This document shows, in pieces, positions 1,085 through 12,438 of a DNA stretch of 60,089 nt (position 1 is the first letter of the stretch; each line of letters begins with the position of its first letter). Made by a program: the position numbers and the translations under genes. The notes beneath the pieces are model-generated. The model made no database searches and was not told the origin of the DNA. It saw nothing but the letters and a program-made list of their open reading frames with translations. The stretch is from Planctomycetota bacterium (GTDB lineage Bacteria > Planctomycetota > Phycisphaerae > Tepidisphaerales > Tepidisphaeraceae): NCBI GenBank assembly GCA_039182125.1, contig JBCDCH010000022.1, positions 1 to 60,089 of the forward strand. Reading direction: 5' to 3'.

Positions 1085-1154
1085 ACGCCCACGGCTTCAG
1101 CCGTGGGTCGGCAAGCGTAACCGATCGCGGACCCACGGCTGAAGCCGTGGGCGT
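1085..1154. repeat. 25-bp perfect inverted repeat, each arm itself a hairpin
   Basis: Bases 1085-1109 and 1130-1154 are exact reverse complements of each other, separated by 20 bases. Each arm contains its own 9-bp-stem hairpin (CCCACGGCT-TC-AGCCGTGGG). The pair starts 4 bases beyond the pheT stop codon and lies before the LURP-one-like gene, both read on the reverse strand. The paired short palindromes in opposite orientation resemble REP/BIME elements. There is no T-tract, so a standard intrinsic terminator is less likely. Confidence 0.8.
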
Positions 1155-9050: not shown

Positions 9051-10439
9051 ATGTTTCATGTGCCGATCGGTCGCGACTTTGCGGCGTTCCGCAGGGCGGT
9101 GCGGACGCTCGTCGCATTGGATGTCGAGCCGGCGGGAGTGAGCTTTGAGGAGGCATCGCTCTTCGGCGGCGACCCGTTGCCATCGGGCGTGGAAAGTCGG
9201 CCGCTCAACCTGCCGCCGCAGTTCGCCAGCGCTGTCAAGCTCGTCGCCCACCACCGCGACGAACAACGCTGGGCGTTGCTGTATCGCCTGATCCGTCGCG
9301 TCACCAAGGGCGAGCGGCACGTCCTCGATCTCGCGACTGATGACGACGTGTCCCGGCTCGCTCGGATGGAAAAGCAAATCCGCTTCGACCGCCACAAGAC
9401 ACATGCGTTCGTGCGGTTCCGCGAAGTAAATGATGAGATGGGGGACGGTCGGATGGTTGCGTGGTATCGCCCCGATCACTACACGTTGCCGCTCTCGGCA
9501 CCGCACTTCGTCGAACGCTACCGGGCGATGCGCTGGGCCATCCTCGCGCCCGACGAGTCGGCGACGTGGGACGGCGAGCACCTCACGTTTGGCCCAGGCG
9601 TCCCACGCGACCAGGCGCCCACCGATGATCAGTTCGAAGACCTCTGGCAGACTTACTACGCGTCCATCTTCAACCCCGCCCGGATCAAGATGAATGCGAT
9701 GAAGAAGGAAATGCCGCAGCGGTTCTGGGATTTGTTGCCGGAGACGCGGGCGATGCCACGGATGCTCGCCGACGCGCCGCAGCGGGTGCAGGCCATGGTC
9801 AAAGCCACGGCACAACCGACGCGCTCCGCCGCCGACTTCGTTCCCGTCGACCGCAGCTTGCCGGTGTTGCGCGAAGCGGCGGCGGGTTGCCGTGGCTGCG
9901 ATCTGTGCGAGGCCGCAACGCAGACGGTTTTCGGTGAGGGTCCGACCGACGCGCCGATCGTGTTCGTCGGCGAGCAACCCGGCGACAAGGAAGACCTCGC
10001 CGGCCGGCCGTTCGTCGGACCCGCCGGGCAACTCATGGACGAACTCCTCGCCGAAGCCGGCGTCGATCGTAAGCGGGTGTACGTCACCAACACCGTCAAG
10101 CACTTCAAGTTCGAGCAGCGCGGCCGACTTCGCCTGCACCGCACACCCGCCGCCCGCGAGGTCAACGCCTGCATGCCCTGGCTCCGTGCCGAACTCGACA
10201 CGATCAAGCCGACGCTCATCGTCGCCCTGGGCGCAACGGCCGCACAGGCGATCATGGGCCGGCAGTTCCGCGTCACGCAGAGTCGCGGCCAGGTGATGAG
10301 GTGCCGCTACGCCGAGAAGTTCATGGCCACCATCCACCCCAGCGCGATCCTGCGCATCCCCAACGAGCCCCGCCAAGCCCAGGCCAAGCGCGACTTCATC
10401 GCGGACATGCGCACGGTGGGGCGTCTGTCGGCAGGATGA
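9051..10439 (+). CDS. udgX: DUF4130-UdgX fusion, uracil-DNA-binding protein
   Basis: A 462-residue fusion. Residues 1 to about 240 are the DUF4130 module (TIGR03915-type: LYRLIRRVTKGERHVLDLA, MEKQIRFDRHKTHAFVRF). Residues about 265-462 are a UdgX-type uracil-DNA glycosylase superfamily domain (TIGR03914). Visible are the iron-sulfur-type CRGC, FGEGP, motif A GEQPGDKEDLAGRPFVGPAG, the R-loop LRLHRTPAAREVNACMPW and motif B HPSAILR. H363 in LRLH corresponds to the histidine of the KRRIH loop in Mycobacterium smegmatis UdgX, which forms a covalent link to the abasic site after uracil removal. The ATG at 9051 is chosen because residues upstream in frame are antisense to the secreted hypothetical. 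Confidence 0.93.
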   Translation: MFHVPIGRDFAAFRRAVRTLVALDVEPAGVSFEEASLFGGDPLPSGVESRPLNLPPQFASAVKLVAHHRDEQRWALLYRLIRRVTKGERHVLDLATDDDVSRLARMEKQIRFDRHKTHAFVRFREVNDEMGDGRMVAWYRPDHYTLPLSAPHFVERYRAMRWAILAPDESATWDGEHLTFGPGVPRDQAPTDDQFEDLWQTYYASIFNPARIKMNAMKKEMPQRFWDLLPETRAMPRMLADAPQRVQAMVKATAQPTRSAADFVPVDRSLPVLREAAAGCRGCDLCEAATQTVFGEGPTDAPIVFVGEQPGDKEDLAGRPFVGPAGQLMDELLAEAGVDRKRVYVTNTVKHFKFEQRGRLRLHRTPAAREVNACMPWLRAELDTIKPTLIVALGATAAQAIMGRQFRVTQSRGQVMRCRYAEKFMATIHPSAILRIPNEPRQAQAKRDFIADMRTVGRLSAG

Positions 10440-10483: not shown

Positions 10484-10539
10484 TTCTGCTTCTCATTCTC
10501 ATGCTCAAGGGTGAGGCACGGTTGAGCATGAGAATGAGA
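10484..10539 (+). repeat. Left 56-bp inverted repeat flanking the AAA ATPase gene
   Basis: These 56 bases are the exact reverse complement of 11888-11943. The unit is internally palindromic: a perfect 19-bp stem (10490-10508 with 10522-10540, TTCTCATTCTCATGCTCAA and its complement) around the 13-base loop GGGTGAGGCACGG. Six further bases (TTCTGC) on the outer side make the unit asymmetric. The two copies point outward symmetrically around the ATPase gene like terminal inverted repeats. No target-site duplication is visible outside them. Confidence 0.9.
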
Positions 10540-10595
10540 ACGAATCGGAAAACAGCGCGTCATGGGGCGAGGCGCGCAATGCCGGCCTGGCTTGT

Positions 10596-11861
10596 GTGAA
10601 ACCACAACCCATCACACGTCGTTGCGCCACCTCCGTTCTTGTCGAGAACGCCGAGGAGGAGGGCGCATTGTCGGCCGACGCGACCGCGTCGGCTTCGGTC
10701 AGCCCGACTCAACACGGCCCGACCCAGCTCAACGCCCGGTTCCTCTCGGACGTTCGGCCCACGAAAGTTCGCTGGCTTTGGCCGGGGATGCTCCCGGCCG
10801 GAAAGTTGGTGGTGCTCGCGGGTGATCCGGGCCAGGGCAAGAGCCTGCTCGCGGCAAAAATCTGTGCGCAGGTCAGCACGGGGGGCAGGTGGCCCGACGG
10901 CGGAAAATGTCCAAGGGGCTACGCGTTGTTCATTAGCGCCGAGGACGACCCGGCCGACACCACCCTGCCACGGATCATGGCGGCGGGGGGCTGCCCCTCG
11001 CGGGTGGGCTGCGCCGACATGATCGACGAGAACGGCCGGGATCGGGGCTTCGACCTGCGCGACACCCAGGCCATCGACCAACTCATCCAGACCATCAAGT
11101 CCACCCACCGCCAACGGCATGAAGACTGGCAAGCCAAGCAACGCCGGCAGGCCGACCCTTTCGACGTCGAGGACGACAAGGATCCGACCGGGCCGGAGCA
11201 GATCGGGCCTAATCAGATCGGGCCGCCCAAGTTGCGCCTGATCGTGATCGATCCGGTTAGCGCGTTCATGTCCGGCTCGGACGGACACTCCAATGCCGAA
11301 GTGCGCGGCATGCTCAAGCCGCTGGCGGAGTTGGCCACACGGACTGGCGCTTGCGTCGTGCTCATCACCCACCTCTCCAAGGGTGGTACCGGCAAGGCCG
11401 TCTACCGTTCGATGGGTAGTTTGGCATTCATGGCCGCGGCGCGGGTCGGGCTGCTGCTGACCAAGAGTCCCGACGACGAGCGCCGCCGGTTGATCGTGCC
11501 GGTGAAGAACAACCTCTCGGGCGATCAGGCCGGACGTGCCTACACCCTCACCACCAACCCGACCGACCCCGATACGCCGGTGGCACTGCTCGAACCGGGC
11601 GAGGTTGACGCCTCTCACGTGCTGCGCCGCCTCGACCATGAAGCCTTCGAGGACGGCCCGACCAAGCTCGAAGAGATGATCGACTTCGTCCGCGACAAAC
11701 TCGCCGATGGCGAGATCCCCGGACGGGTTATGCACCTGGCATTGGGTGAGGCGGGAATGAGCATGGCGACCTTCCGGCGTGCTTGCGGCACCATCGGCGT
11801 CCGCACCCGTCGCGGCGAAGGACGCCAGTGCTTCTATAGCCTCCCCGTCGAGCCCGACTAG
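10596..11861 (+). CDS. RepA-like AAA ATPase (AAA_25 family)
   Basis: A 421-residue P-loop ATPase resembling RepA-type replicative helicases of plasmids and phages. Walker A is AGDPGQGKSLLAAKI near residues 76-90. An ISAEDDPADT phrase follows, and Walker B is LRLIVIDPVSAFM, followed by the family-typical segment GACVVLITHLSKG and then GSLAFMAAARVGLLL. The C-terminal 60 residues (LEEMIDFVRDKLADGEIPGRVMHLALGEAG) look like a small winged-helix DNA-binding domain. The start is a GTG at 10596 with no obvious ribosome site. About 50 low-complexity residues precede the ATPase core. The gene stands alone between two perfect 56-bp inverted repeats, suggesting a small mobile or formerly mobile unit. No primase or integrase is adjacent. 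Confidence 0.85.
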   Translation: MKPQPITRRCATSVLVENAEEEGALSADATASASVSPTQHGPTQLNARFLSDVRPTKVRWLWPGMLPAGKLVVLAGDPGQGKSLLAAKICAQVSTGGRWPDGGKCPRGYALFISAEDDPADTTLPRIMAAGGCPSRVGCADMIDENGRDRGFDLRDTQAIDQLIQTIKSTHRQRHEDWQAKQRRQADPFDVEDDKDPTGPEQIGPNQIGPPKLRLIVIDPVSAFMSGSDGHSNAEVRGMLKPLAELATRTGACVVLITHLSKGGTGKAVYRSMGSLAFMAAARVGLLLTKSPDDERRRLIVPVKNNLSGDQAGRAYTLTTNPTDPDTPVALLEPGEVDASHVLRRLDHEAFEDGPTKLEEMIDFVRDKLADGEIPGRVMHLALGEAGMSMATFRRACGTIGVRTRRGEGRQCFYSLPVEPD

Positions 11862-11887
11862 CACCCCATGTCGTGTCGGGCACTCCC

Positions 11888-11943
11888 TCTCATTCTCATG
11901 CTCAACCGTGCCTCACCCTTGAGCATGAGAATGAGAAGCAGAA
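11888..11943 (-). repeat. Right 56-bp inverted repeat, abutting the ssrA promoter
   Basis: Exact reverse complement of the left copy at 10484-10539. It starts 26 bases after the ATPase stop codon, and its last base is directly followed by the TTGAAC box of the tmRNA promoter. The 18-to-19-bp stem with 13-base loop can fold in RNA as well as in single-stranded DNA, but no T-tract follows, so it is not a textbook terminator. Confidence 0.9.
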
Positions 11944-11973
11944 TTGAACATGCTGCTGGCCATGGCGTACAAT
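11944..11973 (+). promoter_or_regulatory. Sigma-70-type promoter of ssrA
   Basis: TTGAAC (11944-11949) and TACAAT (11968-11973) are separated by 18 bases and match the housekeeping consensus closely. Transcription would start near 11980, about 40 bases before the mature tmRNA 5' end, leaving a leader for RNase P to remove. Confidence 0.7.
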
Positions 11974-12021: not shown

Positions 12022-12401
12022 GGGGGCGACCGGCTTCGACCGGATGGCTACGGTGGCGGTGGCATGCCGAGGACGCCCAACAGGCCTCGTTAAAAAGTGG
12101 GCAAAACCATAACTGCCAACACCAATGCAGTCGCAGGTCGCATCGGCTTCGATGCCCCTGTAACCCTGGCCGCCTAAGTGCCGCCGACGGGTCAAGTGAA
12201 GTGCTCGCGAGCGCTTGATCCGACAACCAGCGAGCTGGCCGTGATGAGCCGTTGTCGGCATCACGGCGAGATTTAGACAACTGGCCACCACGGCAGGGCG
12301 TCGCCTCCCGTCCGTGGTAGCGAGATCAAACAGACGACTACGCATGTAGAAGCCGTCATTCGGGTTATCCCGGGACGGGGGTTCGATTCCCCCCGCCTCC
12401 A
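12022..12401 (+). ncRNA. ssrA: Transfer-messenger RNA (tmRNA)
   Basis: tmRNA rescues stalled ribosomes and tags the unfinished protein for degradation. The 5' end GGGGGCG pairs with 3' CGCCTCC (12394-12400) to make the seven-pair acceptor stem. It is followed by CGACCGGCTTCGACCGG, the typical tmRNA 5' D-loop-like segment, and the T arm GGGTTCGATTCCCCC lies near the end. The tag frame follows CAAAACCATAACT and reads ANTNAVAGRIGFDAPVTLAA, then TAA. It ends in the usual LAA. The tag is 20 codons, longer than the 10-11 of E. coli. Base 12401 is the discriminator, and the genome then reads CTA, so CCA is not encoded. The gene is one-piece, not permuted. Confidence 0.95.
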
Positions 12402-12438
12402 CTACAAACGCCTAACGGCATCGAAACGCATAGCGACG

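Follow-up and report, generated by a model that had tools for sequence, protein, structure and literature searches.

The question posed by positions 10484-11943 of the window (the whole 60,089-nucleotide stretch of Planctomycetota DNA that was analysed) is what role is served by two perfect, hairpin-forming inverted repeats that enclose a single ATPase gene. A sequence-only reading had described two 56-bp arms that are exact reverse complements, each able to fold on itself through a 19-bp stem, and our analysis bears this out. The left arm (10484-10539, + strand) lies 57-112 bp upstream of the annotated start codon of the ATPase gene, the right arm (11888-11943, - strand) lies 26 bp past its stop codon, and the two arms, with 1348 nt between them, are 100% complementary. 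Each is nearly palindromic, its 19-bp stem being closed by a loop that contains a small GTG-AGG-CAC hairpin. Folded alone as DNA, the left arm reached -21.5 kcal/mol (z = -8.6), with 0 of 200 shuffles equally stable; the right arm carries the same sequence in reverse complement.

Chance can be ruled out as the source of these arms, since the half-site CTCATTCTCATGCTCA matched 8 times in the window with at most 3 mismatches compared to 0.24 matches expected, all of them within or overlapping the arms, and since a 1.28-Mb sample of the genome, in which the arms are the longest inverted repeat with distant arms, contained no other near that length. A partial copy of the inner part of the hairpin (11744-11765, + strand; 18 of 22 positions) lies within the 3' end of the ATPase gene and may be due to chance. 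Further hairpin copies flanking the same ATPase had been proposed as support for a mobile unit, and single copies scattered downstream of unrelated genes as evidence against one. Neither was seen: the two arms are the only copies in the source genome, and the sequence was absent from 396 other genomes of the class. A search of IMG/VR was likewise negative, both for the hairpin and for close relatives of the ATPase protein. A dispersed REP-like family was rejected on the same grounds, namely that the genome holds no further copies. Palindromes of other kinds are dispersed in this genome. A REPIN-like family, with arms containing GCCCACGGCTTCAGCCGTGGGTC and differing loops, was found 11 times in the 1.28-Mb sample (window 1085-1154, and contigs C1, C4, C13, C15, C20, C27, C35 and C39 of the source assembly, G000), and a second family, AACCGCGTTGCGGAGCAACGC, about 5 times. 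Two further identities were considered for the arms and set aside. Integron attC sites, suggested by GTTGAGC/GCTCAAG, were rejected because the copies are inverted and no other integron feature was seen. The N15-type telomere is also 56 bp long, but the site here falls short of a perfect palindrome, and there was no sign of a protelomerase.

As the sequence-only reading had stated, the arms enclose only a RepA/AAA_25-type ATPase, encoded by an intact reading frame of 421 aa (10596-11861, + strand; the GTG start codon at 10596 is uncertain). A Pfam scan of this protein matched AAA_25 (E 9e-31, 107 bits against a cut-off of 27) and nothing else above cut-off, with no match to prim-pol, DUF927 or D5/Primase_Cterm. 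The Walker A motif GDPGQGKS and positions D219, H259 and R271 were invariant in a 4-sequence alignment, so that all catalytic positions in it are kept, while the first ~50 residues were not conserved; the protein also lacks an N-terminal primase region that is present in longer homologues. Using a profile built from four family members, RSF1010 RepA was the top sequence relative in the PDB (1g8y, E 4e-9), and the structure model matched RecA-fold proteins, RSF1010 RepA included. The protein therefore belongs to the AAA_25, or RepA-type, class of ATPases. In the full-length model the RecA-type core is followed by a C-terminal helix-helix-helix-strand-strand arrangement (pLDDT about 76-90), which was recovered in the same order, albeit with low confidence, when this part was folded alone. 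We take it to be a predicted winged helix, encoded at approximately 11700-11846 (+ strand). Codon usage of the gene is typical of the source genome; its composition thus shows no sign of recent import, and import from a compositionally foreign donor was rejected. In a quick tree of 70 ATPases the protein occupied a long branch, as did the other ATPases bracketed by repeats (see below), which did not group with one another.

The unit lies between a gene encoding a TIGR03915 domain and a UdgX-type uracil-DNA glycosylase domain (9075-10439, + strand; true start uncertain) and ssrA, the tmRNA gene (12022-12402, + strand), whose predicted promoter (TTGAAC, 18 nt, TACAAT; 11944-11973, + strand) starts at the base after the right arm. 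A UDG-type gene lies upstream of ssrA, on one contig and strand, in four other genomes of the same family (G010, G019, G020 and G021). Based on a reading of open reading frames, made without a domain scan, the slot between the two genes holds a GNAT acetyltransferase gene in G021 (~1.2 kb) and a serpin gene in G010 (~1.4 kb); it is longer in G020 and G019. Because its content differs among relatives, the unit can be said to occupy a variable slot. The ATPase was not found at this position without its repeats in any relative, the unit being absent from their slots. A precise empty site lacking the 1.46-kb segment, which had been put forward as a further sign of mobility, was not found among the genomes searched; no other member of the source genus was among them, and the nearest belong to other genera and hold other slot genes. 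No integrase match occurred in the 16 kb around the unit, which sits on the 5' side of ssrA and not at its 3' end.

Several observations concern ssrA and the wider window. A second tmRNA match above cut-off lies on a contig of 3.6 kb in this assembly (G000:C130:3242-3598, L110) and reflects either contamination or a second ssrA. In another member of the family (G012:C88, L057), the 3' side of ssrA holds, at a distance of ~2 kb, the ATPase gene together with a tyrosine integrase gene, which form an integrative element at ssrA, and in G021 a 495-aa reading frame that looks like a tyrosine integrase (L101, 2958-4445) runs into the 3' end of ssrA. Positions 14876-36190 of the window (- strand) form a single, very repetitive reading frame of 7104 aa that looks adhesin-like.

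Matches to the ATPase were present in 138 of 397 genomes of the class. Many of the homologue loci that we inspected have a tyrosine integrase nearby, and one has a serine recombinase. A paralogous AAA_25 ATPase of the source genome lies beside a phage capsid gene, in what is likely a prophage or satellite (L054; G000:C16:50000-64000), and GAAGGTGCGCA repeats are found in its 3' end. Given the nearby integrases and this paralogue, we read the family as the replication-module ATPase of integrative elements and phages, some copies of which, including that of the window, stand alone. The mobile-element ancestry ascribed earlier to the ATPase is upheld by these loci and by homologues on plasmids and phages. 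In one genome (G053; L052, 7137-8471) AAA_25 and Phage_integrase matches fall in one reading frame, either a fused ATPase-integrase or an assembly artefact.

A repeat scan across homologous loci, which were chosen by protein similarity and not by repeats, revealed a sharp peak of short repeats at the stop codon of the ATPase gene. At least 8 repeated 9-mers occurred between -100 and +200 of the stop codon in 49% of 53 homologues, whereas the share was 9% among 292 ends of other genes from these loci (odds ratio 9.5, p about 1e-10) and 0.1% in shuffles; about half of the homologues were without a strong 3' cluster. A second homologue set gave 28% against a background of 6%. The repeats are element-specific and often form hairpins, yet are alike in look (CGAAGGTGCTCA, CAAGATGCTCA, CGAAGGATGCCAA and others); some lie within the coding region. 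They are also present in homologues that are not enclosed by repeats. Many homologues share the motif AAGR-N3-4-YCA, which the hairpin of the window does not fit. This motif was derived from the first set of loci and is partly circular on that set; it was found in 5 of 18 homologues of the second set compared to 1 of 167 background ends, and was weak in the third, most distant set (2 of 20 versus 3 of 159). Folding is likewise stronger at the 3' ends of the ATPase genes than at the ends of control genes (z < -3 in 25% versus 4%, p 3e-5), the ATPase end in the window reaching z = -5.8. Beyond the class, repeats are densely clustered immediately behind the AAA ATPase gene of the Corynebacterium glutamicum plasmid pCG2; no clear cluster was seen in five other homologues from plasmids or phages. 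In the 6.8-kb pCG2 the cluster (L359, 2338-2800) consists of direct and inverted CATACATA/CCCCCACTTA repeats and is a likely origin.

Strong sharing of repeats across both sides of the ATPase gene is rare, with two other clear cases, and neither has an integrase in the DNA examined. In G281, CAAGATGC..GCATCTTG hairpins occur twice on the 3' side and once, inverted, on the 5' side, at a locus that ends at a contig end; they were found nowhere else in that genome at the same stringency. In G212, TGAGCATATGAGATGATGAGATGAGAAA-type hairpins lie on both sides of the gene, inside a 785-kb contig, and are concentrated at that locus. The G212 arms resemble those of the window in sequence, but the copies there point in one direction, an arrangement that argues against terminal inverted repeats. 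The tie between bracketing and a missing integrase is suggestive only (p 0.10, not significant). Two further loci (L316 and L320) share repeats on both sides of the ATPase and were not counted among the bracketed cases, and a candidate fourth bracketed orphan in G114 (L318) was rejected, since its repeats occur dispersed through the G114 genome. Intergenic regions of G114 and its sister genomes in genus g71 are full of short tandem repeats (CTAACTCC, GATCCGTGATC and CAAATTC types) that recur across genomes.

Sequence comparisons indicate that stand-alone members of the family change places. In the sister species G114 and G138 (genus g71), a stand-alone ATPase with 85% nucleotide identity has differing neighbourhoods, lying beside alaS in G114 and between other genes in G138. 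Within the limits of their contigs, seven sister genomes had no match to this ATPase next to alaS; the left flank of the G138 unit was found in G084 and the right one in G104, in both cases without the ATPase and never together in one genome. Neither the G114 nor the G138 ATPase is bracketed by locus-specific hairpins.

Taken together, these findings favor, with a probability of roughly 55%, the reading that the unit is an orphaned replication module, that is, a Rep-type gene that retains its own candidate DNA recognition sites. Since origin-like repeats at the 3' end of the ATPase gene are common in the family, a role for the hairpins other than as transposition ends is suggested. The right hairpin is most likely an origin-like site of the Rep gene, because it has the same position as the stem-loop of pRN1 and the downstream origin of SaPIs. 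The left hairpin is a second, inverted copy and possibly an operator or a duplicated origin; upstream repeat copies stand where an operator is expected, ahead of the unit's first gene, and in iteron plasmids rep is controlled by operator repeats that are akin to the iterons. If the module works as SaPI Rep, P4 alpha and pRN1 Rep do, its winged helix would bind the hairpin that immediately follows the gene, where rings of the ATPase may assemble and then melt the DNA, while the upstream hairpin would either limit synthesis of the protein or provide a second copy of the origin. The gene would have descended from integrase-bearing elements and now be integrase-free in the variable UdgX-type/ssrA slot. 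We infer DNA binding, melting, replication and autoregulation by the ATPase from this layout; the site consists of one hairpin per side and not a tandem iteron array, and the exact identity of the two arms is left unaccounted for by the Rep/origin reading.

An extension of the Rep/origin reading, which we consider a long shot, is that orphan RepA-type genes of this kind, each with its two origin hairpins, make up a minimal chromosomal replicon or a unit that can be amplified, in which Rep acts at both hairpins and copies the single-gene segment between them; if true, this would be a selfish element that has neither transposase nor integrase. The bracketed orphans in any case invite the question of whether a lone Rep gene is able to persist or to move. 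To our knowledge, the replication origins and plasmid tools available for Planctomycetota are few, and the element-specific 3' repeats of RepA-type ATPases offer a clonable and testable list of candidate origins for this phylum.

The sequence-only reading had suggested that this may be a non-autonomous or undescribed mobile unit. In a non-autonomous unit the hairpins would be terminal inverted repeats cut by a recombinase acting in trans, and the ATPase would be cargo or helper. Perfect inverted arms that exactly enclose one gene, a slot that varies among relatives and the differing neighbourhoods of a related stand-alone ATPase in sister species are all consistent with it. However, the sequences next to the arms show no target-site duplication (...GCGGGAG on the left, TTGAACATG... 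on the right), searches of the source genome, 396 other genomes of the class and IMG/VR gave no further copy and no partner element that shares the ends, the G212 copies face the same way, and the 3' repeats occur in non-enclosed homologues as well. Thus, mobility of stand-alone ATPases gains some support from G114 and G138 while hairpins as transposon ends do not, and we regard this explanation as unlikely. Slightly less probable is a relic without present function: what remains of an integrative element, its arms made identical by duplication or gene conversion of one palindrome. The lack of a nearby integrase, the long branch of the protein and the absence of the primase region of longer homologues agree with this, but the intact reading frame with its full set of catalytic positions, the genome-typical codon usage and two arms free of mismatches do not.

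A role of the hairpins in ending transcription or in insulating the ATPase gene from its neighbours is likewise improbable. Both hairpins are intergenic, and strong hairpins are not scarce in this genome (~65 in the 1.28-Mb sample), but terminator prediction returned no terminator-like site or T-tract in the region, and this explanation leaves unaccounted for the 3'-end repeats of homologues, some of which lie within coding sequence.

Comparison with known systems places the proposed orphaned module nearest to elements that pair a Rep protein with a downstream origin. Rep of SaPIs and other PICIs and Cch2 of SCCmec have an iteron origin downstream of the rep gene (PMC7581432, PMC6092414), with the gene order primase, rep, ori in PICIs (PMC6092414). 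The unit resembles these in its Rep-type ATPase; its predicted winged helix may be the counterpart of their C-terminal DNA-binding domain, and downstream repeats that differ between elements are common in its family, although the unit itself has a single hairpin there. It differs in that its ATPase is of the RepA/AAA_25 type while theirs are DUF927 or D5/Primase_Cterm, in the one hairpin on either side, and in the lack of an integrase, a primase and att sites. Replication of pRN1 depends on a stem-loop immediately 3' of rep that keeps its fold but varies in sequence from relative to relative, and the pRN1 Rep has a C-terminal winged helix (PMC4234260). The stem-loop at 11888-11943, 26 bp past the stop codon, and the predicted winged helix parallel this arrangement, whereas pRN1 Rep has a prim-pol domain, to which the ATPase of the window has no match, together with an SF3 helicase, and pRN1 has no second inverted stem-loop upstream. 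RSF1010 provides the closest ATPase of known structure, RepA, and hairpins (ssiA and ssiB) that are recognised during initiation (PMC4234260); its origin, however, is recognised by RepC and not RepA, its ssi sites are read by the primase RepB', and the unit has neither RepB nor RepC.

Among mobile elements, mobile insertion cassettes and MITE-flanked genes (PMC3913671, PMC4133298) also carry a gene within inverted repeats and no transposase, but here neither a target duplication nor a related element whose ends match was found. Terminal inverted repeats, as in a TIR transposon, are present. IS200/IS605-like and REP/RAYT elements differ in that neither the reading frames nor a Pfam scan showed a transposase inside the unit, as had been stated from the sequence, and the hairpin is not dispersed in the genome. 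Elements integrated at ssrA would differ in both integrase content and position, the unit being 5' of that gene. Taken together, these comparisons suggest that the unit is best read as a variation on the known Rep-plus-origin replication module, and that the 3' repeats tie integrative elements of Planctomycetota to the SaPI/pRN1 layout of Rep plus downstream origin by way of a different ATPase family.
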